Part shown: positions 24,648 through 35,958 of the stretch, one piece after another | Numbering within the stretch: position 1 is the stretch's first letter | Layout: each line of letters begins with the position of its first letter | Assembly (NCBI RefSeq): GCF_019879105.1 | Contig: NZ_CP082249.1 | Location: 2,790,001 to 2,854,000, forward strand | Source: Natrinema sp. SYSU A 869 | GTDB lineage: Archaea; Halobacteriota; Halobacteria; Halobacteriales; Natrialbaceae | Direction of reading: 5' to 3' | DNA length: 64,000 nt | The notes under the pieces: generated by a model | The model's input: only the letters and a program-made list of their open reading frames with translations | Databases searched by the model: none | Told to the model about the DNA's origin: nothing | Program-made: the position numbers and the translations under genes

Positions 24648-25276
24648 AGTCGCTCGTACGGATCGGGTAACCAAAAGCGGCGGCCTCGATGATGGAAGCC
24701 GTCGAACTACTCGCCGAGAGGAGGGGTGTCGTCGTAGACGTCGGGAATCGGCGTCGTTCGCGGAAAGCGTCGGATACGATGCGTGTACTCGGGGGCGTTC
24801 CGTCGCTCGATCAAATCGGCTCCCCGATCCGGTATCGCGGTTCGATCGAAGGCGTCGTTCGGCTATCGCGCGGCGGTCGGACCGGGCCGAAACGATACAG
24901 TGTCCTAATAACACGGATCGCGGTAGGGACGAACGAGCGATCCGGCGTGAAGTTGGGCTCCATTTCCGTCGGACGTGCGACCGACTCGAGCGTTGAGCCG
25001 CGGCTCCGTGACGTTGCACTTCGGTAGATAATCTACCGGATACGCTTCGAACGGCTGGTTCGTATTCCGAGCAGGGGTTACCGATCCCCCGACGCCACAA
25101 CGTCTCCGGATCCCTCCGGAGTCCGTCTACCGCCACATCGTCGCCGTCCGCTCACGAGCCCTAGATTCATCTCACTCCGTCGCATAGCTCTCGTTGGATC
25201 GGTCCCTGCTCCGTCTGATCGACTCGACGTTGCGACAGGCCCGTTCCTCGAACCGGCCTCCCCTGCCAGTACCCGT
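24648..25276. other. Intergenic region with one weak small ORF
   Basis: Spacer between the divergent BtuF-like and ASST-like genes. A 35-codon frame on the minus strand (24707-24814, TTG start) ends in a protein-like stretch RIRRFPRTTPIPDVYDD and may be a gene fragment. No repeat or RNA gene seen. Confidence 0.4.
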
Positions 25277-26580
25277 ATGAACCAGCGAACCCGCGTCGCC
25301 GTCGTCACCGTCCTCATCGGCCTTTTGATCGCGTCACTCGGCGTCCAAGCAGTCATTATTGATCGCGAGCCGAGAGTCGTCACCGACGACGGTAGGTATC
25401 CCGGGAACACGCTCGTCGGCGTCCATTCGTACAACGACGACGGGCGGGTCGTCGAACTGACGCCCGACGGTGAGGTCGTCTGGGAGTGGTCGGTGCCGGA
25501 CTCGCGCGTGTTCGGCGTCGAACAACTCGACGAGGGGACGGTGCTGGCAGCCGTCGCCGTCAGGACGCCCGCCGAAGACTGTCCCGAGGAGTACCTCGAG
25601 TACGAGGAGACAGACCATCAGTGCGTCCACAATCGTGTCGTCGAACTCGATAAGGACTCGAAAGAGGTCGTCTGGGAGTACGACTGGTACGACGAGTTCA
25701 TCGCCGACCACGAAGTCCACGACTTTGAGCGCCTCGAGAACGGCGAGACGGCGATCGCCGACATGGGGAACGATCGCGCGTTCACCGTCGACCGCGACGG
25801 CGAGATCACCTGGGAGTGGCACGCCGAGGATCACCTGACGCCCGGCACGCCGTTTTACGAGGAGTACGGCGGTCCCGAAAAGGAGGGGAACACGACGACT
25901 GGACGCACATGAACGACATCGACCAGCTGGAGAACGGCAACTTCCAGATGAGCATCCGCAACTTCGACGTGATCATCGAGGTCGATCCGGGGACCGACGA
26001 GATCGTCGACGTCGTCGGCGAGCCCGGGAACCACGACGTGCTGGATAAACAGCACAATCCGCACCGCATCGAAGACCAGGGGACGATGGTCGTCGCCGAC
26101 AGCGAAAACGGGCGCATCGTCGAACTCGATATCGAGTCCGAAGAGCGCGTCTGGCGCTACACCGGCCCCGCGAGCGATCCCCTCCAGTGGCCCCGGGATG
26201 CCGATCGGCTGCCTAACGGCAACACGCTCATCACCGACTCCCGGAACAACCGCGTGCTCGAGGTCGATCCCGACGGCGAGATCGTCTGGCAGTTCGACGA
26301 TCTCGATGGCGAGGTGATACCGCTACCGTACGAGGCCGACCGGATCGGCATCGACGAGCGGTCCGATGTCCCACCGGGGACCGAACTGACCGCGGTCGAC
26401 GACGAGCCCGGCCCTGTCGAGTCGGCGATTCGGAAGGGGGCGGCCATGGCCCAATACGTCTTCCCAACGTGGATGCACCTTCCACAGGTGCTGCACATCG
26501 CCGGCATCGCCCTCGGGGCGCTCTGGCTCTGTGCGGAGGGGGTCATCCTCGGCTGGCGGCGGATCAGGGCCCGTCGGTGA
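25277..26580 (+). CDS. Arylsulfotransferase-like (ASST) beta-propeller membrane protein, frame break
   Basis: About 434 residues. An N-terminal membrane anchor (VLIGLLIASLGVQAV) is followed by propeller blades with repeated GEVVWEW, EVVWEYDW and GEIVWQFDD strands, and a C-terminal helix (VLHIAGIALGALWLC). ASST enzymes transfer sulfate from aryl sulfates to phenols or glycans outside the cell. The frame breaks at GGGG 25885-25888; one added G gives EKEGEHDDWTHMNDI. HDDWTHMN and DKQHNPHRI carry His residues that may be catalytic. It converges on the glycan/lipid cluster. Confidence 0.78.
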
Positions 26581-26671
26581 TTGGGTCCGGCCGCGAGGCC
26601 ATTGCGGCCGCGTTGGTCCTGGTTAACGTTCCTCGAGTGTCTCGGGTCGCCGGTCGCTGGATGCGGACCGC

Positions 26672-27637
26672 TCAGCGAGTCGCCTTGTACGTAAGAAACA
26701 CCGCCGTCCCGAGCGCCGCGGCGTACCACAGCGTTCCCACGCGGATCACAATCGTGGCGGCAGCCGCGACGGCTTCGGGGTAGCCGAACGTGAGCAGCAC
26801 GCCGACCATCGACGCCTCCGCCGCAGCGATCCCCCCGGGGAGCATCGATACCGCGCCGACGACCGAGCCGAGGCCGAAGACGAACAGGCCGATCACGACG
26901 CTGGTCTCGAGGCCGAACCCCTCGAGGACCAGCCAGAGGGCGACGCCCTCCAGGCCCCACGCCACGAGGCTGAACAGGGTTGAAACGACCAGTGGGCGCA
27001 CCCGGAACAGCCGGTAGGCGCTCTCGTAGAACCGCTCCAGTTCGGTCGCGTAATCGCCGACGACCGGGAGCGACTCGAGTCGTCCGATGACGGCTAGACT
27101 GGCCTGTCGCCACTGGAGCAGGCCGATACCGGCCGCGATAGCGCCGAAGACGACGACGATAGGGAGCGACGAGCGGCTGTAGACCAGCAACCCGAGCGCG
27201 GCCATCGCGCTGAGCGCGATGAGGTCGGTGATGCGCTCGGCGCCGACGACGGAGGTGATCTTGCTCGCGGGGATGTCGCGCTCCTTTCGGAGGAACCACG
27301 CCTTCCAGACCTCGCCGGCTTTCCCCGGCGTGACGACCATCATCAGGCCGCTGAAGAAGGTGATTGCGCTCGCCTCGAGCGGGATGTCCACCTCGAGTCG
27401 CCGGAGGTAGTAGTGCCACTTGGCGAACCGAAAGCCGTACCCGACGGTCGTCAGGCCAATGACGGCCGCGAACGTCTCCCAGTTCAGGGTGGCGAGGGCG
27501 CTCGTCACGTCGCCGACGTTCGCGTAGGCAGCGAGGCCGAGGAAGACGACGACCGAGAGGAGCGCCGTCAGCCAGACGCCGTGGTCGCGGACGACCGCCC
27601 GACCGTAGTCGACGACGGTCCCATCGTAGTCGCTCAT
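26672..27637 (-). CDS. Lysylphosphatidylglycerol synthase TM-region / flippase-like membrane protein
   Basis: A 321-residue protein with about eight membrane helices, of the UPF0104/MprF N-terminal (flippase-like) family. Family blocks are RFAKWHYYLRRL, MMVVTPGKAGEVWKAWFLR near residue 100 and SMLPGGIAAAEASM near residue 265. Members flip or handle lipid-linked molecules; archaeal AglD belongs here with a GT domain that this protein lacks. Its ATG overlaps the stop of the PHP gene (ATGA), so UbiA-PHP-this gene form one operon. A role in moving a polyprenyl-sugar is inference. Confidence 0.82.
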   Translation of the reverse strand: MSDYDGTVVDYGRAVVRDHGVWLTALLSVVVFLGLAAYANVGDVTSALATLNWETFAAVIGLTTVGYGFRFAKWHYYLRRLEVDIPLEASAITFFSGLMMVVTPGKAGEVWKAWFLRKERDIPASKITSVVGAERITDLIALSAMAALGLLVYSRSSLPIVVVFGAIAAGIGLLQWRQASLAVIGRLESLPVVGDYATELERFYESAYRLFRVRPLVVSTLFSLVAWGLEGVALWLVLEGFGLETSVVIGLFVFGLGSVVGAVSMLPGGIAAAEASMVGVLLTFGYPEAVAAAATIVIRVGTLWYAAALGTAVFLTYKATR

Positions 27638-28329
27638 CGCCGCGGGAACCCTCCCGACGTGAGCGTCCCGACGACGCGACCGGAAGCGGTGCGGAACTGG
27701 TGGAGTTTCGTCGCGACGTGCCCTGAGAGGTACCGTCCGCGACCACCCGCTCGAACGCGTCCGTCGCGGACGGCGTCCGCGAGCGAGCCGCCGCCCTCGA
27801 TGCTGGTGTACGCACGGCCGATCTCCATCGGGAAGTGAGCGTCGCTCCCGCCAGTCGCTGGCAGGTCGTGGGCGGCCGCGAACGCCGCTGCGCGCTCGTT
27901 GAACCGGCGGCGGACGCAGCGGGAATTCACCGTTTCGACCCCGTCGACGGCATCCGCGAGTGTGTCGAGATCTGTCTCGTAGTACTGTCGCAGTGCGTCG
28001 AACGGATGCGAGAGGACGGTGACGCCGCCCTGCTCGTGGACGTGGTCGACCACCGTCAGCGGATCAGTTTGAGGCGGTGCCTCCGTTACGTCGAGCGCCA
28101 GGAGGTGACCCTCGGTCGTCGTCACTTCGACCGCGGGGACCACATCGAGGTCGTCCGGCGCGGCGTCCCGAACGGCGTCGACGTTTGCGAGCGTGTCGTG
28201 GTCGGTGACAGCGATACCGTCGAGTCCAGCGGCGGCCGCTGCCGCGGCCACGCGCTCGGGAGGTGTGCTCGAGCAGGGCGAGGCGTCCGTGTGTACTTGG
28301 AGATCGTATCGCCGCGTCATGGTCGTCAT
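27634..28329 (-). CDS. PHP-domain phosphoesterase
   Basis: A 231-residue PHP-fold metal-dependent phosphatase. The ligand sets are DLQVHTDASPCS (H-x-D form), GIAVTDHDT, then the catalytic Glu in VPAVEVTT, LSHPFD near 105 and GGSDAHFP near 165. Known relatives hydrolyse nucleotides, histidinol-phosphate or DNA ends. It lies 31 nt after the DPPR-synthase-like gene and overlaps the flippase-like gene by 4 nt. It could therefore be the phosphatase of that pathway (inference). No signal or membrane span. Confidence 0.88.
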   Translation of the reverse strand: MTTMTRRYDLQVHTDASPCSSTPPERVAAAAAAAGLDGIAVTDHDTLANVDAVRDAAPDDLDVVPAVEVTTTEGHLLALDVTEAPPQTDPLTVVDHVHEQGGVTVLSHPFDALRQYYETDLDTLADAVDGVETVNSRCVRRRFNERAAAFAAAHDLPATGGSDAHFPMEIGRAYTSIEGGGSLADAVRDGRVRAGGRGRYLSGHVATKLHQFRTASGRVVGTLTSGGFPRR

Positions 28330-28360
28330 AGTGGTCTCGATGTGGAGTGGGGTGAGCGGG

Positions 28361-29275
28361 TCACGCGATCATTTTGAGGAGACGGGCCGGAACCCCGTAA
28401 AGGACCGCGATGACGAGGAGTCCCCAGACGACGAGGTTGATGAAAAACGGCCGGTCGCCGAAGAGGAACTTCGGGTCACCGCCCAGCGTCTGCGTGTGGG
28501 CGAGGAAGTGGTAGCGGAAGACCGCGAAGAAGGCGAACGGGAGCGTGGACATCATCCACAGTCCGCCGCGAAAGAACGTGTAGAGCGAATAAGAGACAAC
28601 CAGCGCCGCCAGAACGACGACGAGTAACTGGTCGAGCGTCTCCTCGGTGTACTCGGCGAGGGTAGCGCGTGATGCGGCCGGATCGTCACTGACGATCATC
28701 TCGTGGCGGCGCTTGCCGAGCGCGAGCATGAGCGCCCCGAGGAACGTACAGACGACGAGCCAGGGGCTCAGGTAGACGTCGATGGCGACGACGCCTGCGA
28801 TGGCTCGCAGGACGAACCCGACGGCGATGACCATCACGTCGACAATCACGATGTCCTTCAGAAACGAGGAGTAGAGCGCATTCTGGGCGAGATACGCGCA
28901 GACGACGAGGAGGAACAGCGGACCGATGTACCAGGAGAGGGTCAGTCCGCCGACGAAGAGCAGGAACGCGAACGACACTGCCACAGGAATCGGCACCTGT
29001 CCGCTGGCGATGGGGCGGTGTTTCTTCCGCGGATGGTTACGGTCCTCCTCGATATCGAGGATGTCGTTGCCGATGTACGTCGTGCCCGCGATGGCACAGA
29101 AGGCGACGATCCCGAGGGCGACGTTCGTTGCGGCGACCGGATCGAACAGACTCCTGGAGAAGACGAATCCCAGAAGCAGAACGCTCTGCTTGTACCACTG
29201 CCAGGGACGTATCTCCTTTACTAGACCCGAGACGGCGCCGACGAACCGGCTCTGGTCAGTGTACGCACGAGCCAT
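28361..29275 (-). CDS. UbiA prenyltransferase, decaprenyl-phosphate phosphoribosyltransferase-like
   Basis: A 304-residue membrane protein with about nine helices. The UbiA aspartate motif reads YIGNDILDIEEDRNHP and continues KKHRPIASG. The second block is IVDVMVIAVGFVLRAIAG, then GKRRHE. These forms, and the opening RPWQWYKQSVLL, are those of DPPR synthases (Rv3806c type), which move 5-phosphoribose from PRPP to a polyprenyl phosphate, rather than of ubiquinone or heme prenyltransferases. ATG 29273-29275 (MARAYTDQ) is chosen over a TTG 10 codons upstream. First gene of the UbiA-PHP-flippase operon. Confidence 0.85.
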   Translation of the reverse strand: MARAYTDQSRFVGAVSGLVKEIRPWQWYKQSVLLLGFVFSRSLFDPVAATNVALGIVAFCAIAGTTYIGNDILDIEEDRNHPRKKHRPIASGQVPIPVAVSFAFLLFVGGLTLSWYIGPLFLLVVCAYLAQNALYSSFLKDIVIVDVMVIAVGFVLRAIAGVVAIDVYLSPWLVVCTFLGALMLALGKRRHEMIVSDDPAASRATLAEYTEETLDQLLVVVLAALVVSYSLYTFFRGGLWMMSTLPFAFFAVFRYHFLAHTQTLGGDPKFLFGDRPFFINLVVWGLLVIAVLYGVPARLLKMIA

Positions 29276-29750
29276 CAGTCTTTCCACTCCCACAGTCGAC
29301 GACAAAAAGTTCCGGCTTGCCTTTAGCGGCTGGCCGACGCTATGCTGCCGCTAACCGCCGATCTGCCGTCGGGAACGCAGCATCTAAACCGTGATCGGGA
29401 ACTGATTGCCCCAATGAACTGTTTCGGGAAGAGAAACCGAGTGTTAGAGTAGATTACCGTCACTTCGAACACTCTCCGTGTGCTCCTCGCAGGAGCCGCG
29501 TGCTCGAGCGACAGCGGATCGTCGGGAATACGAGCCCCATAACGTACTATTGCAGTGCAAACCACTGGTTCGCTAGCGTCTGCATGCCCGGTATCACGAG
29601 AGCAAGCGATCGCTCGTCTCGAACGTCTCTCTCGCTCTCTCGCAGTGTCGCCCCTCGGTTTCGCCTTCCACAAAGATAATCGGCTGTATAAGGCTGTGAA
29701 ACGCCGATACACTATTGAGGCGCCGTAATGACATCCAGTTTGATACCACG
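29276..29750. other. Divergent intergenic region of the glycan cluster
   Basis: Lies between the UbiA (-) and epimerase (+) genes and must hold both promoters. There is a short hairpin (CTCCTCGCAGGAG) near 29483. No gene is seen in either strand. Confidence 0.5.
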
Positions 29751-30840
29751 ATGAGCGACAGTGAGCACGCCAGCGGCGACTCGAGTGGTTCGGTTCTCGT
29801 CACGGGGGGGACCGGGTTCCTCGGCCTCCACACGTGCCAGCACTTCCGCGACCAGGGGTGGGACGTCACCGCGTTTGATCTCAAGCCGTTCGAGGCGGAA
29901 GACGACACGGACGGCATTGACTTCATCGAGGGGACGTCCGAAGCGAGGAGTCGGTAGCCGACGCGCTCGAGGAGAGTGGTGCCACCGCGGTGGTGCACGC
30001 GGCGGCCGCGCTCCCGCTGTGGGACGACGACCGCATCCGCGAGACGACCATCGACGGGACGCGAAACGTGCTCTGGGCGGCGAACGAACACGATGTCGAG
30101 CGGGTCTGTTACATCTCCTCGACCGCGGTTTACGGAACCCACGACGCACATCCGATCACCGAGGAATCGTCTCTGGATGGCGTCGGCCCCTACGGCGAGG
30201 CCAAGATCGAGGCCGAGAAGGTTTGTCAGGACTTCCGTCGCATGGGAATGTGCGTCCCTATTCTCCGCCCAAAGACGTTCATCGGTCCGCAGCGACTCGG
30301 CGTGTTCCAGGTGCTGTTCGACTGGATCGAGGACGGCGCGAACGTCCCGCTCGTCGGCTGGGGAACAACCGCTACCAGCTGTTGCACGTCCACGACCTCG
30401 TCACTGCCATCGAACTGCTGCTCACCGGAGACGAAGAGGCGGTGAACGACACGTTCAACGTCGGTACCGACGAGTTCGCCACGATGAAAGCGGACTTCCA
30501 GGCCCCTATCGACTACGCGGGGACGGGCAAGCGAACCATCGGGACGCCCGCCTTCCTCACGGTCGCGGTCCTCCGTGTACTGGATACGCTAAACCTCTCT
30601 CCGCTGTATCCGTGGGTCTACGAGACGGCCCACGAGGATTCCTACGTCTCCGTCGAGAAACTGAAAGACCTCGGCTGGGAGCCCGAGTACTCCAACCAGG
30701 AGGCGCTCGTGGAGACGTACGAGTGGTACCTCGAGAACTACGAGGCCGACGAGACGGCTGACGGGACCGGCCTCGACCACCGCGTCGCGTGGGATCAGGG
30801 TGCCCTCGCCGTCGCGAAGAAGATCTCACAGCGGATCTGA
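29751..30840 (+). CDS. NAD-dependent epimerase/dehydratase, two frame breaks
   Basis: An extended short-chain dehydrogenase of about 363 residues that alters a nucleotide- or lipid-linked sugar. It has VLVTGGTGFLGLH at residues 16-28, the catalytic YGEAK (Tyr-x3-Lys) and VCYISSTAVYG before it. Two breaks occur, each cured by one G: GGGG at 29930-29933 (IEGDVRSEESVADAL) and GGGG at 30360-30363 (VGWGNNRYQLLHVHDL). It diverges from the DPPR-like gene and is followed 1 nt later by a GT-C gene, so it is likely to process the sugar in that pathway. Substrate unknown. Confidence 0.88.
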
Positions 30841-30841
30841 A

Positions 30842-32200
30842 ATGGCCGTCCGTTCACGCGTCGTGAGTCGTTCCAGATGGGTCGCCGTCCTCGGTCCGGT
30901 CGTCGCCGTCCTGTTCGTCGCCGGCTTCGTCAGATACATGCTCGTCGACTGGCCGACGATCGCGACCGATCCCGCGTTCTTCCAGCATACGGGCTGGTAC
31001 GTCCTCAACGGCGGCGTTCCGTATCTCGATGTCTGGGACGTGAACCCGCCCGTTCCGTTCGGGATCGCAGCCGTTCTCTCCCTCCTCTCCGGCGGGGACA
31101 TGCTCGTCCTGCACGGCCTCAGCTCGGCGTTCACGACGTTCGTCGCTGCTATGAGCGTCCTGCTCGTCGGGTGGGTGGCATACCTCGTGACCGGAGAGGA
31201 CGCGGCGGCGGTCGCCGCCGGCCTGACGATGCTGGTCGTCCCGGAACTCTTCCTCCTCTCTCCGGAAGGGGTGCGAGCCCAGTTCTATGCACTGTTTTTC
31301 GGTGTCCTCGCGCTCGCACTCGCCCTTCGCGACCGCCCCTTCCTCGCCGGGGCCATCGCGGCACTGAGCGCCGGTTCGTGGCAATCGGGAGGCGTCTTCG
31401 CGCTACTGGTCGTCGGAATGGCCTACCAGCGAAACAGGCGGACGGGCGCGCTCTGGACCATCGCGGGCGGCGGCGTCGTGACCGGCGTCGTCGTCCTCGT
31501 GTTCGCGGCCGTAGGTGCGCTCGTCCCCATGTTCGTCGAAACGGTGGTCGCGACGCTGTCCGCCGGATCGTCGTACACCCTGGCCGAGCGCGTCTACTCG
31601 ATACTGCTCGTGTTCGGCTACGGGTCGCTACTCCTCCCGGTGGCGCTCTACGGCTGGGCGCACGCCGCCGTCCGCGACCGTTGGGAACGGTGGTGGATAA
31701 CGGCGGGCGGCGTGTTACTCGCCCTTCAGGTGCTGTTCGTCGACCTGGACGGCTCGACGGACGCGCTCCTGTGGCTTGCCTTCGTCGCGCTTGGCGTCGC
31801 CGTCACCGTCGAGCACGTAACGACGTGGTGGTCGGCGACGCTGGAGCGCCGCGGTGATAACGCGACCCGGGCCACCCGACGTCGATGGACGGCCGTCGCC
31901 GTCGTCGCCGTCGTTGCGGCGCTCGTTCTCTCGGGACTAGTCTGGCACTTCGGCTCGCCAGCCCCGCAGTCGACGCTCTACGCGATGCAACAGGATGCCG
32001 AGCCGGAGGCAGACCCACTGCCAATAACGCCGGATGATGCGGACGTCCCGTCGATGCAGACCATCTATTGGGACCAGATGAAACCGGAGACCTGTCACTA
32101 TCGGTTGAGTTGGAACGAGGTGCGGTGGATCTCGATGACTGACGATCGACTGGACAGACGGGCGTGCGACGGGTGGCCGAGTCGAACCGATCACGGCTAG
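30842..32200 (+). CDS. GT-C-like membrane glycosyltransferase
   Basis: A 452-residue protein with some ten membrane helices and an outward C-terminal tail. The first loop holds TDPAFFQHTGWYVLNGGVPY and LDVWDVNPPVPFG, the pattern of polyprenyl-phosphate-sugar-using GT-C enzymes of the DolP-mannose type. ATG 30842 is one nt after the epimerase stop, so the two are cotranscribed. The tail has a Cys pair (ETCHY, RRACDGW). Donor and acceptor are unknown; transfer of the pathway's lipid-linked sugar is inferred from context. Confidence 0.72.
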   Translation: MAVRSRVVSRSRWVAVLGPVVAVLFVAGFVRYMLVDWPTIATDPAFFQHTGWYVLNGGVPYLDVWDVNPPVPFGIAAVLSLLSGGDMLVLHGLSSAFTTFVAAMSVLLVGWVAYLVTGEDAAAVAAGLTMLVVPELFLLSPEGVRAQFYALFFGVLALALALRDRPFLAGAIAALSAGSWQSGGVFALLVVGMAYQRNRRTGALWTIAGGGVVTGVVVLVFAAVGALVPMFVETVVATLSAGSSYTLAERVYSILLVFGYGSLLLPVALYGWAHAAVRDRWERWWITAGGVLLALQVLFVDLDGSTDALLWLAFVALGVAVTVEHVTTWWSATLERRGDNATRATRRRWTAVAVVAVVAALVLSGLVWHFGSPAPQSTLYAMQQDAEPEADPLPITPDDADVPSMQTIYWDQMKPETCHYRLSWNEVRWISMTDDRLDRRACDGWPSRTDHG

Positions 32201-32260
32201 CGGTTTGGCAAGGTCGTACTCGAGCGAGTGTGACCGACGACGCAGACGCTGGCAGCGATT

Positions 32261-33805
32261 CTATCCGCCGTCCGACGTCCGCTCGAACTGGACTACTGTA
32301 ATTCCGTTGTACCGTTTCACCGCTACCGGGCCGCGATACTCAGCGCGGCCCTCCACCGCCTCGAGAATCCGTTGGTTGGTCGATGAACCGGTGTACGAGA
32401 GGACGATCCAGACGTCGTCGTGCCCGTCGACGGATGCCCGTATTTCGTCGGCCGACGCGTCGGGGCTAATCCGAACCGTAGGCACGTCCGACTGATCGAA
32501 GTAGTAGCTGAACGTCCGCTCCGTGAACGGTCTGCTCACGAGGACGACATCGTTGTCGTCGACGTTCGACTCGACGTCGGCGGCGGCCCCCCGCCACTGT
32601 TCTTTCTGGTCGTTCTGATAGTACGCCGGGAGCGGCAACGCGAGACCGACGAGGAGCACTCCGACGACGGCGTACCGAAGCGACGGGCGAGAGAACGTCC
32701 GCACGCCTATCGCGATCAAGAGGAAAAACGCCAGCGACGCGCCGATCGAGTACCGATCCACGAAGATCGGCGCGACGACGTGCGAGAGGGCGATCGGGAC
32801 GAGTATCGGGACGACGAACCAGAGGACGACCACGTACATGGCATTTACTGGCGCGTCCTGGCGATCGGACCCTGAGGCCGTCGCTCGCTCGCTCGAGAGC
32901 GCGAGTACCAGACAGCCCACGACCACGAGCGAGACGAACAGCGGGAACGACTCACCGAACAGGTAGCCGCCGAGATACGCGGCGAACATCTCCCTGACGG
33001 TCTCGGCCGTCGGTAGCGGAATCCACGAGACGTTGCTCGTTTCATCGCCGTGGGCCGCTACCGTACGGCGGCCCAACCGCACCAACCACGGGGCGAGCAG
33101 GAGGGCTGTGATCCCCTCAAGGGTGATCCAGCGGCGGACGGTCAGTCGCGACCGGGGGACGATCCGGACGAGGTATCGAGCGAAGACGTACGCGTTCTGG
33201 GCGAGTATCACGAACAGCCCGAAGACGTGTGTATAGCCGAGGAGCACCGTGGAAACGACGTACCAGATATCGTCCCGAACGCCCTCCTCGTCGGCCGGTC
33301 TCTCCGTCTGCATGCGTACGAACCAGTAGAATGAGAGCGCTGTCAGCAGTGCGAGCAGATTGTACATCCGTACCTCCTGTGAGTACCAGATGTGAAACGG
33401 TGAGACAGCGACGAACACCGCTGCGATCGCTCCGACCTCTCGGTCGAAGAGTCGCCGACCGACCCCGTAGAGGACGACTACCGTGGCGATTCCGACGAGG
33501 GCCGATAACAGTCGAGTGGCCAGTTCGGTCGTTCCGAAGACCGCCGTCCAGCCGGAGAGGAGAAGATAGTACAACGGCGGGTGGGGATCGTTCCCCGGCA
33601 CGCTGATCAGGAGTTCGAACGGCGTGTTCGACGTAGCAGTGGTCACCGAGACGACTTCGTCGACCCAGTAACTCTCGGAGTCCAGCCGGAAGAGCCGAAG
33701 CGCGGCCGCGAGGAGAGCGATCGGATACAGTTCAATCGGGATACTGGCCAGGGACCGATCCCAGTTTCTCCCCTCATCTTTCTCGGTCGTCGGGGACGGC
33801 GACAT
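32261..33805 (-). CDS. Family 39 glycosyltransferase (PMT_2)
   Basis: A 514-residue GT-C membrane protein. The first extracellular loop has the acidic pair SYWVDEVVS and then NDPHPPLYYLLL, both hallmarks of family 39; about eleven helices follow and a soluble tail of about 130 residues. It would transfer sugar from a polyprenyl phosphate outside the cell. It converges with the GT-C gene at 30842, ending 60 nt from it. Second such enzyme in the cluster and third in the window. Confidence 0.85.
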   Translation of the reverse strand: MSPSPTTEKDEGRNWDRSLASIPIELYPIALLAAALRLFRLDSESYWVDEVVSVTTATSNTPFELLISVPGNDPHPPLYYLLLSGWTAVFGTTELATRLLSALVGIATVVVLYGVGRRLFDREVGAIAAVFVAVSPFHIWYSQEVRMYNLLALLTALSFYWFVRMQTERPADEEGVRDDIWYVVSTVLLGYTHVFGLFVILAQNAYVFARYLVRIVPRSRLTVRRWITLEGITALLLAPWLVRLGRRTVAAHGDETSNVSWIPLPTAETVREMFAAYLGGYLFGESFPLFVSLVVVGCLVLALSSERATASGSDRQDAPVNAMYVVVLWFVVPILVPIALSHVVAPIFVDRYSIGASLAFFLLIAIGVRTFSRPSLRYAVVGVLLVGLALPLPAYYQNDQKEQWRGAAADVESNVDDNDVVLVSRPFTERTFSYYFDQSDVPTVRISPDASADEIRASVDGHDDVWIVLSYTGSSTNQRILEAVEGRAEYRGPVAVKRYNGITVVQFERTSDGG

Positions 33806-34092
33806 ACTACCGATTGCAACGATTCAGCGTATGAATGTTGGTCAGCTAACTGCGCTCACCGGCCGGATTACCGTCCCCTTCACAGCCCGAAGACAGCGGA
33901 ATTCCGAGTCGAGCGAATCGGAGCGTCGTGTCTCTCGCAATTCTTTGCTTCGCACGACAAATGGGGCAGTTCGCAGGCCACCCCCGTTCTGCCGTAAGCG
34001 CTGGCGAGAGGCTGCGAATGTGGATCCCTGACTGTGCTGATCGAGAGGGGCGCCCGCATTCACCCGAAACGGCCGCCGCTCGGAGTTGCGTT

Positions 34093-35958
34093 CTACTGTT
34101 CGGACGACGACACGCCCGAAAGCGCCGCCTCGAGTTCCCGAACCCCCTCCTTCGACGTTCGATCGGGGTTCGCAAGAACGCACACCGGCTGCTGGCCGAG
34201 GGAGACGAATCCAAGATCGAGCCGATCAGCGGTCTCGCGCAGCCCGAGGCCGGCGTCGGCATCGCCCGCGATAACCTTGCGGGCCGGGCTCTCGTGGGCG
34301 CGCAGGCCCAGCTCGAATCCGTCGATCGCGTCGACGATCTCATGGCGGTCCGATCCCCGTTCCCCGGCGAGGTCGGCGACCGAAGCACCGAGACTCGAGC
34401 GCAGCCCCGAATCCGTCGTCCGATTGACGAACCGCAGATCGCGATCGACCAGATCCTCGAGCCCCTCGATCTCGTCGGGGTTGCCGGCCCGGACGACCAG
34501 CCCCCACTTGCGTTCCCAGCGCCCGATTTCGGTTGCCTCGAGTTCTCGATCGAGCGGTCCTGCGGCCACAGCGATATCGGGGACGCCCTCGCGGAGTCGC
34601 CGCAGGCCGGGCCGGGTCCCGACCGAGAGGTAGCGCGGGTTCTCGAGCCCGTCGAGCAGTCGCGAGACCGTCGGGTCGTCCTCGCCGACGCCGAACAGCG
34701 TCGGCGGACGGACGTCCGGCGAGAACAGCGTGACCGTGACGGGTTCGCCCTCCTCGAGGTAGTCGGTCTCGGGGCCGACTTCCACGACGCCGTCGGCGTC
34801 CGCGAGGCTGGTCGTCGCGCCGCTGCCCTTGTCAACAGGGTAGACGAGCGTCTCGCCGTTGCCGTCCGTGACAATCCCGACCGGCATGAGCCGGTGTCGA
34901 CCCTCCTCGTACCGTTCCTGTCTGGCCAGCCGGCCGGAGACCGTCGCGGATGCGGGCTCCGGCGTTCCGGCCGCCTCGCGGATCGCCGGTGCAACGAAGG
35001 TTCGGAAGACCATCATCGCGGAGACGGGATAGCCGGGGAGGCCGACGTACGCGGAATTATCCAGCCGACCGATCAGCATCGGCTTCCCTGGTTTGACGCT
35101 CACGCCGTGGAGCAGCAACTCGCCCTGTTCCTCGATAACCCGATAGATAACGTCGACCGCGCTCGCGCTGGTCGATCCCGAGGAGAGCACGAGGTCACAC
35201 TCGTCAGCCGCGGTCCGCAGAATCTCCTCCATCTCGTCTTGCTCGTCGCCGGCGTGGGGGTAGAGGACAGCCTCCCCGCCGGCATCTTCGACGCCCGCGG
35301 CGATGGTGTAGCTGTTGACGTCGTAGATCTCGCCGCGCTCGCTGTCGAGGTCCTCCCCCGGCCGGACGAGTTCGTCACCTGTCGAGACGATGCCGACCTG
35401 CGGTTTCGCTCGGACCGGCACCTCGTCGATCCCCAGCGCCGACAGCAGGCCGATGTCGCGAGGCGTGATCGTCGTTCCGGGACCGAGCGCGCGTTCGCCG
35501 GCGGCGACGTCTGCCCCCGCGAACATGACGTTGTCACCGGGAGCGACTGAGGTACGGACCAGGACCTCGTCGCCGTCAGCGTCCGTATCAGTTCGCTCGA
35601 CGGGGACCATCGCGTCTGCGCCGTCTGGCATCACCGCGCCGGTCGAGATTTCGACAGCCTGCCCCTCCTCGAGCGCCACGTCCGGTTTCGCACCCGCGTG
35701 GATCTCACCGACTATCTCAAGGCGGGCAGGATCAGCCTCGTCCGTGCCGAACGTGTCCCGGGCCCGGAGGGCGTAGCCGTCGAGGCTCGCCCGGTCGAAC
35801 CCCGGCACGTCGAGTTCGGCGTCGAGTCGCGCCACGAGCACCCGGCCGCGTGCATCCTCGAGTGAGACGCGCTCGATGCCGCCCTCAAGGGCCAGCGAGT
35901 CGATCGCCTCGCGTGCCTCTGCGGGGGAGGCGAGATCGCGGAATTCCTTGCGGTTCAT
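34093..35958 (-). CDS. moeA: MoeA-type molybdopterin protein fused to a PBP (LysR-substrate-like) domain
   Basis: A 621-residue fusion. Residues 1-400 are MoeA, which inserts molybdate or tungstate into adenylylated molybdopterin: FDRASLDGYAL, STGAVMPDGADAMVP, IGIVSTGDEL-type strand and LSSGSTSASAVDVI are its blocks. Residues about 430-610 form a periplasmic-binding-protein-like domain (LSVGTRPGLRRLREG, VNRTTDSGLRSSLG), without a signal, as in archaeal moeA-PBP fusions; it may sense molybdate or the cofactor. A second, unfused moeA lies at 37923. Start ATG 35956-35958. Confidence 0.92.
   Translation of the reverse strand: MNRKEFRDLASPAEAREAIDSLALEGGIERVSLEDARGRVLVARLDAELDVPGFDRASLDGYALRARDTFGTDEADPARLEIVGEIHAGAKPDVALEEGQAVEISTGAVMPDGADAMVPVERTDTDADGDEVLVRTSVAPGDNVMFAGADVAAGERALGPGTTITPRDIGLLSALGIDEVPVRAKPQVGIVSTGDELVRPGEDLDSERGEIYDVNSYTIAAGVEDAGGEAVLYPHAGDEQDEMEEILRTAADECDLVLSSGSTSASAVDVIYRVIEEQGELLLHGVSVKPGKPMLIGRLDNSAYVGLPGYPVSAMMVFRTFVAPAIREAAGTPEPASATVSGRLARQERYEEGRHRLMPVGIVTDGNGETLVYPVDKGSGATTSLADADGVVEVGPETDYLEEGEPVTVTLFSPDVRPPTLFGVGEDDPTVSRLLDGLENPRYLSVGTRPGLRRLREGVPDIAVAAGPLDRELEATEIGRWERKWGLVVRAGNPDEIEGLEDLVDRDLRFVNRTTDSGLRSSLGASVADLAGERGSDRHEIVDAIDGFELGLRAHESPARKVIAGDADAGLGLRETADRLDLGFVSLGQQPVCVLANPDRTSKEGVRELEAALSGVSSSEQ

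Follow-up and report, generated by a model that had tools for sequence, protein, structure and literature searches.

A putative donor-and-transfer cassette for a dolichol-phosphate-linked pentofuranose on an inserted segment of Natrinema sp. SYSU A 869

The stretch of Natrinema sp. SYSU A 869 DNA analyzed here (64,000 nt, positions 2,790,001 to 2,854,000 of contig NZ_CP082249.1; hereafter the window, in whose own coordinates positions are given) belongs to a genome of 5.67 Mb on three contigs and carries a group of seven genes that includes a UbiA-superfamily enzyme, a PHP metallohydrolase, an LPG_synthase_TM membrane protein, an extended short-chain dehydrogenase/reductase (SDR) of the Pfam Epimerase family, and two putative membrane transferases. 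We assign a probability of roughly 0.75 to the reading that these genes form a horizontally mobile cassette, one that makes and transfers a dolichol-phosphate-linked pentofuranose donor. The analysis establishes gene content, conservation (including that of substrate-binding residues), co-occurrence, tree position, and insertion; the catalytic steps, lipid, sugar, and acceptor we infer as follows: the UbiA enzyme would transfer 5-phosphoribose from phosphoribosyl pyrophosphate (PRPP) to dolichol phosphate at the cytoplasmic face, the PHP protein would strip the 5-phosphate from the lipid-linked 5-phosphoribose, the extended SDR would invert one ring hydroxyl (at C3 to give xylofuranose, favored by precedent, or possibly at C2 to give arabinofuranose), the LPG_synthase_TM protein would help to flip the pentose lipid, and, on the outside, a transferase of the GT-C type (PF15971), perhaps together with a GT39-like one, would add the pentose to a surface glycan. 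A sequence-only reading of the window had already proposed a pentose-lipid donor route; its UbiA type and linkage have held up, its arabinose and sulfation have not, and it missed both the insertion and the closest published analogue.

The UbiA enzyme and its conserved partners

The UbiA protein had been likened to decaprenylphosphoryl-5-phosphoribose synthase (DPPR synthase, DPPRS) from its sequence, and indeed it scores 241.6 bits against the NCBIfam model NF008977 for decaprenyl-phosphate phosphoribosyltransferase (cut-off 234) and matches NF008978, NF006088, and NF008976 below their cut-offs. A PDB search with a profile of eight haloarchaeal UbiA proteins returned DPPRS chains first (8j8j at E 5e-43 and 8j8k at 7e-31), followed by digeranylgeranylglyceryl phosphate (DGGGP) synthase at 8e-6. 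Residues binding PRPP, Mg, or the lipid phosphate in Rv3806c, the DPPR synthase of Mycobacterium tuberculosis, were taken from the account given in PMC10994848, with D77 and D81 assigned from the aligned motif and from a passage of PMC11127046. R22, K28, Y70, N73, D77, D81, K87, R90, Y138, K143, and K191 are all identical in the window enzyme and are kept in 50/50 haloarchaeal, 9/9 other same-phylum, and 6/6 bacterial relatives, except that a single haloarchaeal row lacks K143.

UbiA-family proteins are common, with nine matches in this genome, and the window enzyme could in principle be an ordinary quinone or lipid prenyltransferase whose clustering is incidental. The DPPRS model, the residues, and the tree, together with the linkage and co-occurrence reported below, speak against this; we rejected an ordinary quinone prenyltransferase on these grounds and find the alternative as a whole hardly credible. 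The genome encodes eight other UbiA proteins, of which seven could be compared, the eighth having no locus. The full Rv3806c residue set is found in none of the seven, and Y70, K87, and K191 are each kept in one. The paralogue stretches are short at the N-terminus, and those of L001, L002, L003, and L007 do not reach K28; a separate residue table gives Ala at this position in L002 and L003. A tree of 50 rows was built by a quick maximum-likelihood search from 24 haloarchaeal relatives (out of 50), eight of the nine other same-phylum relatives, ten bacterial proteins, and seven of the eight paralogues. It places the window enzyme with the DPPRS, inside a starred clade that comprises 25 haloarchaeal proteins, and six of the seven paralogues on the opposite side. 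The seventh, L003, sits on a very long branch and fell on the DPPRS side in the free search, but constraining all seven to one side gave a likelihood above that of the free search and was not rejected (p-AU 0.62 in the approximately unbiased test). The deep branching order is unsure owing to long branches; the grouping apart from other UbiA subfamilies, which the sequence-only reading had named as a check on its assignment, is what the tree returned. Two points weigh against the assignment: the window enzyme has Asn, Phe, and Ala at the positions of Q135, Y157, and K208 of Rv3806c, and N73, R90, Y138, and K143 are also kept by most paralogues and hence not diagnostic. Overall, the comparisons support placing the enzyme with the DPPR synthases.

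Linkage of these gene families across haloarchaea, another check that had been proposed, is conserved. Among 50 further haloarchaeal loci from 48 genomes, chosen by their UbiA gene (seven from a search for relatives and 43 from a survey of the class), a PHP gene is present in all 50, a flippase-like PF03706 gene in 49, and an epimerase-family frame of more than 200 bits in 47, the three without it being L096, L097, and L102. The epimerase is in pieces in L094 and divergent in L103-L106, where a second, weaker SDR match lies closer to UbiA. These four are the most divergent haloarchaeal cassettes, and their additional, different extended SDR near UbiA (e.g., L103:8975-9979) perhaps serves another pentose. 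In the loci of named organisms, a set that shares some genomes with the 50 loci, UbiA and epimerase occur in 10/10 and PHP and flippase in 9/10, the contig of the tenth ending inside UbiA.

The same association is seen at the level of whole genomes. We drew 391 genomes from the class and applied cut-offs of E <=1e-40 for UbiA, E <=1e-80 for the epimerase, and at least 245 bits for the PHP protein; the best five to seven candidates were scored per genome, so that the counts are lower bounds. The cassette UbiA is found in at least 46 genomes, the epimerase in at least 42, all of them among the 46, and the cassette-type PHP protein in at least 47, after which the next match drops to 172 bits. Fisher's test gives p = 3e-52 for co-occurrence of UbiA with the epimerase and 2e-59 with PHP, without correction for kinship. 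The recurrence of the arrangement is more than chance. Points to be held against our reading here are that the co-occurrence counts share ancestry and that G107, the only one of the 47 PHP genomes lacking a UbiA match, has kept PHP and flippase with no UbiA or epimerase found. This PHP-flippase pair (L161:10457-12078) adjoins apparent glycan genes. Other genes found beside the cassette encode a 140-aa protein without Pfam match (L092:7530-7952) and a VTT-domain protein (L089:5739-6422), each in five haloarchaeal loci; genes of similar length are listed in the table for a Halanaeroarchaeum provirus in PMC4866403.

Beyond the class, a survey of the phylum found UbiA matches at E <=1e-12 in 16 of 294 genomes, 14 of them non-haloarchaeal, and ten of these were read around UbiA. 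UbiA, PHP, and flippase stand together in five of the ten stretches (L132-L136), UbiA and flippase share a 3.6-kb contig in L130, and neither PHP nor flippase lies near UbiA in L131 (a 5.5-kb contig), L138, or L139. In L137, the genes that follow UbiA encode a HAD-GtrA fusion, a member of the epimerase family, and a PMT_2 protein. Loci L132-L136 also share a further protein family, DUF362 in L133 (L133:6892-8022), that adjoins the cassette genes in L132, L133, and L135.

Partner proteins and the likely pentose

Dephosphorylation of the 5-phosphoribosyl lipid is the likely role of the PHP protein. It exceeds the cut-offs of PF02811 and PF13263, its four PDB matches are all PHP-type phosphoesterases or nucleases, and several His, Asp, and Glu columns, which we take to be metal ligands, are invariant in its alignment. 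The first His of the HxH motif, which is present in 5/5 non-haloarchaeal rows, is Gln in the window protein and in 50/50 haloarchaeal rows, and this makes phosphatase activity less certain. The best indirect evidence for the role comes from L137, where UbiA and a gene of the cassette's epimerase family flank the one for the HAD-GtrA protein, and where the 16.9 kb read contain neither a PHP nor an LPG_TM gene; the swap makes a phosphatase function of the PHP protein likelier and, with it, the earlier suggestion that PHP replaces a PAP2 phosphatase. In the window, no PAP2-type phosphatase gene lies beside the synthase, where the PHP gene is found instead (this concerns the locus, no genome-wide PAP2 search having been made), and no HAD domain was detected in the proteins scanned. 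The LPG_synthase_TM protein is likely the flippase of the lipid-linked pentose, judging from its family; bacterial members flip aminoacyl-phospholipids. Structure models were too poor for use, with a mean pLDDT of 41 for the PHP protein and of 54 for the epimerase of a relative. DPPRS-type loci on bacterial plasmids have other partners, namely a HAD phosphatase with GtrA (Lactococcus), PAP2 (Marivivens), or an FAD oxidoreductase with an SDR. The Lactococcus plasmid stretch (L122) combines DPPRS, HAD phosphatase, GtrA, LCP, and oligosaccharide flippase genes and is possibly a pentofuranose system in a dairy bacterium.

TGGxGFxG and YxxxK are invariant in eight relatives of the epimerase, and the window epimerase has both SDR motifs, on separate frames. 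The arabinose donor of the sequence-only reading did not survive as the default product. PF04030, the DprE1-type domain and the sole domain tested, has no match in the genome (controls matched in 3 of 14, Corynebacterium glutamicum included), and in Citrobacter youngae, according to the account in PMC11127046, a lone GalE-like SDR of the ORF13 type makes a xylofuranose donor, DprE1/E2 homologues being carried by arabinofuranose loci. On the missing domain and the lone-SDR precedent, xylofuranose is favored over arabinofuranose by analogy; it counts against this preference that the window SDR is likened to ORF13 by description and not by sequence. The same pathway could instead end in D-arabinofuranose as in mycobacteria, with the SDR inverting C2, given that the UbiA enzyme is a DPPRS relative and that extended SDRs inverting C2 of other sugars exist. 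Together with the absent PF04030 match, the two bacterial DPPRS-type loci in which UbiA is accompanied by an FAD oxidoreductase and an SDR, as it would be by DprE1/E2, argue against arabinofuranose, this pair being unseen here, and we regard arabinofuranose as somewhat unlikely, if still the most serious competitor of xylofuranose.

Alternatively, the lipid-linked sugar might stay ribofuranose, the SDR acting on a nucleotide sugar destined for the same surface glycan. This would suit L132-L136, which have UbiA, PHP, and flippase but no strong epimerase (found in L137 only among the ten non-haloarchaeal stretches, a fact unfavorable to our reading), as well as L096 and L097, where the epimerase is not beside UbiA. 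Against it, all 42 epimerase genomes also have UbiA, including G324 and G358, where the two genes are on different contigs. Bacterial relatives of the epimerase likewise keep this company: of the 12 bacterial records matched in a plasmid collection at E <=1e-25, seven have a UbiA gene within 9 kb, on plasmids of Streptomyces, Nonomuraea (judged by match positions, the record being unannotated there), Sinorhizobium (three), and Rhizobium (two). The other five stretches, which have no annotated UbiA, weigh on the opposite side, though annotation is incomplete and some of them end or hold mobile elements. We consider an unmodified ribofuranose improbable and prefer an epimerized pentose. On the rhizobial plasmids L142-L144, L147, and L148, the epimerase relatives are accompanied by an SMR transporter and a GMC oxidoreductase with UbiA genes nearby, and in NGR234 nodS and nodU lie close to these genes; a pentose-lipid route is possible there, too.

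Transfer to a glycan is predicted from the membrane proteins next to the donor genes. PF15971 relatives (at least 140 bits) occur in 21 of the 50 haloarchaeal loci, L102 weakly, and GT39-like relatives (at least 470 bits) in 14, and some polytopic neighbor is present in 44 by a crude hydropathy count in which the most hydrophobic frame was picked. Comparison of the neighboring membrane-protein families with the two transferase families by hhalign was mostly negative, and one of these neighbors is a DUF389 protein, not a transferase; the GT-C component may be exchangeable, as indicated by Pfam for some families and by the hydropathy count for the rest. The aminoacyl-phospholipid flipping of bacterial LPG_synthase_TM proteins and the want of a known acceptor glycan here could also be accommodated if the end product were a pentosylated membrane lipid rather than a glycan donor. 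Given the PF15971 or PMT_2 genes beside the core in many loci and the frequency of polytopic neighbors, we see only a slim chance of this and retain a surface glycan as the predicted acceptor.

Sulfated glycans, in contrast, which had been suggested from the ASST-like protein, are not supported beyond the ASST model matches, and we rejected them. Strong ASST-like relatives (at least 700 bits) are found in seven of the 50 loci and weak ones in ten, and the gene rides inside the insert, yet is absent or weakly matched in 43 loci. An intact relative (L017) passes PF05935 with 55 bits, and in the PDB it matches seven structures, all of them NHL-type propellers or sensor domains of kinases and none a sulfotransferase.

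Insertion, gene layout, and mobility

The whole cassette occupies an inserted segment about 9.4 kb long (Table 1). The flanking genes are 9657 bp apart in the window and 9798 bp apart in the relative G021; in the remaining 27 of the 29 genus genomes they are neighbors, separated by 263-4486 bp. Homology to 8/8 empty sites stops at 24688-24692 and restarts at 34105-34129; because the empty sites keep 0.1-1.5 kb unaligned, the ends of the insert are approximate. Of the repeats considered (20 of 47 direct families and 25 of 52 inverted pairs), none is conspicuous at the termini of the insert.

Table 1. Genes of the cassette and extent of the inserted segment, in window coordinates.
Feature	Position	Strand	Basis or remark
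ASST-like beta-propeller protein	25277..26580	+	ASST models on both pieces, cut-off passed by the second only; one frameshift
LPG_synthase_TM (PF03706) membrane protein, likely flippase for lipid-linked pentose	26672..27637	-	PF03706, 145.9 bits
PHP + PHP_C metallohydrolase, likely phosphatase of 5-phosphoribosyl lipid	27634..28329	-	Pfam models
UbiA-superfamily polyprenyl-phosphate phosphoribosyltransferase, DPPRS type	28361..29305	-	Pfam, NCBIfam, PDB profile, residues, tree
Extended-SDR epimerase (Pfam Epimerase)	29751..30840	+	split over three frames by two frameshifts; open in relatives
GT-C type transferase, PF15971 (Pfam name DolP-mannose mannosyltransferase)	30842..32200	+	102.4 bits; ORF listed from 30800
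PMT_2/PMT, GT39-like membrane transferase, second candidate transferase	32261..33805	-	56.6 bits
Inserted segment with the whole cassette	24693..34104 (approximate ends)		unmatched at the same site in cassette-free relatives

The sequence-only reading had placed these genes and their spacing correctly, including the 4-nt overlap of the flippase-like and PHP genes and the single nucleotide between the end of the epimerase (30840) and the GT-C ATG; relatives point to a UbiA start around ten codons further in, near 29275. What it overlooked are three frameshifts, and these count against a working cassette in this strain: the epimerase runs through three frames, shifted by one base near 29929 and again near 30364, and the ASST-like gene runs through two, shifted by one base near 25884. 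Each adjoins a short G run, and both genes are open in relatives; on these two grounds alone, base-calling error seems likelier than decay. Decay in this strain, with no product being made, would fit three frameshifts across two of seven genes and a count of G-run motifs in which the window, set against relatives, has no systematic loss and hence no sign of systematic sequencing error. All three changes are single-base, however, the remaining five genes are open, and Natrinema zhouii (L024), the nearest named relative found for the locus with a UbiA 88% identical, has uninterrupted versions of these genes at this site. A decaying cassette appears distinctly unlikely to us.

The cassette occurs in varied genomic settings. 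Three other members of the genus carry it at a different site, UbiA and epimerase are found on four haloarchaeal plasmid records, an integrase is near the cassette in L091 and L092, and a gene from a phage protein family without assigned function is present in L089 and L092. In "Prophage 2", a tailed provirus of Halanaeroarchaeum sulfurireducens M27-SA2 whose size is given as both 49.5 and 43.5 kb, Table 10 of PMC4866403 lists a PHP gene, a decaprenyl-phosphate phosphoribosyltransferase gene, one small gene, and an NAD-dependent epimerase gene in this order, on which the section in question offers no comment; the best matches of the three named genes are in Haloarcula amylolytica (L029 in our set). 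The 978-bp gene beside PHP in this provirus may be the flippase. A scan of IMG/VR viral contigs found no UbiA relative, and the only one in a phage collection is encoded by an unannotated fecal scaffold (31%). The presence or absence of the cassette at the same site among species of one genus means that matched strains exist for questions about glycans, viruses, and mating.

Comparison with known systems

Gene-level names for the cassette genes already exist in public annotation, and among the papers listed from the open-licence PMC literature we found no account of the pathway or of a pentose-lipid donor in archaea; a review lists two pentoses in the lipid-linked glycan of Pyrococcus furiosus (PMC2952790). 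If our reading is true, PRPP-derived lipid-linked pentofuranose chemistry would extend to archaea, PHP and LPG_synthase_TM proteins would be proposed as its phosphatase and flippase, and a pentofuranose would be predicted on the surface of N. zhouii, Natrinema gelatinilyticum, and Halostagnicola larsenii.

The mycobacterial decaprenylphosphoryl arabinose (DPA) pathway (Rv3806c, Rv3807c, DprE1/E2, and Rv3789) has a homologous first enzyme with most substrate-binding residues shared and the same kinds of steps, but differs in its phosphatase family, in epimerization by the two enzymes DprE1/E2, and in an SMR-type flippase, and the genome with the cassette has no DprE1-type domain match. Among archaea, the layout parallels AglD/AglR/AglS of Haloferax volcanii, in which the last sugar, a mannose, is loaded onto its own dolichol phosphate, moved across, and transferred outside by a membrane enzyme, and PF15971 is named in Pfam after the activity that PMC3871713 reports for AglS. 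The sugar inferred for the cassette is a PRPP-derived pentose instead of mannose, and AglS is likened to its transferase by description, not by sequence. Prophage 2 of Halanaeroarchaeum has PHP, DPPRS, and epimerase genes as here, but inside a tailed provirus, and is known from the table in PMC4866403 alone.

Further parallels concern the exchange of surface structures. Salmonella and Shigella phages carry gtr operons, which are likewise mobile modules of donor and flippase functions with an exchangeable transferase but use different donor enzyme families; O-antigen side-chain systems are mentioned in PMC11127046. In analogy, we tentatively propose, with less than even confidence, a mobile surface-conversion cassette in which a constant donor module (UbiA, PHP, LPG_synthase_TM, and SDR) and an exchangeable GT-C would alter surface glycans against viruses or mating partners. 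Such a cassette would travel on large plasmids, on chromosomal insertions, on segments linked to integrases, and in at least one tailed provirus, and its PHP protein would represent a new phosphoribosyl-lipid phosphatase class.

The closest published analogue is the bacterial three-component pentofuranose pathway described in 2024 (PMC11127046), exemplified by C. youngae O1/O2. As far as that account goes, and on our reading of the cassette, both have a UbiA-type PRPP-dependent synthase, a phosphatase step, a lone GalE-like SDR, a flippase, and a GT-C in one cluster, and the synthase, candidate flippase, and GT-C indeed share one locus in the window, with a flippase family different from the prototype. 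In C. youngae, a HAD phosphatase is fused to the synthase and the flippase belongs to the MATE family, whereas here separate PHP and LPG_synthase_TM proteins are encoded. The GT-C of the three-component system is a GT136 enzyme and that of the cassette is a PF15971 match. Finally, the C. youngae type is bacterial, whereas the cassette has an archaeal host, in which dolichol phosphate is the expected carrier.

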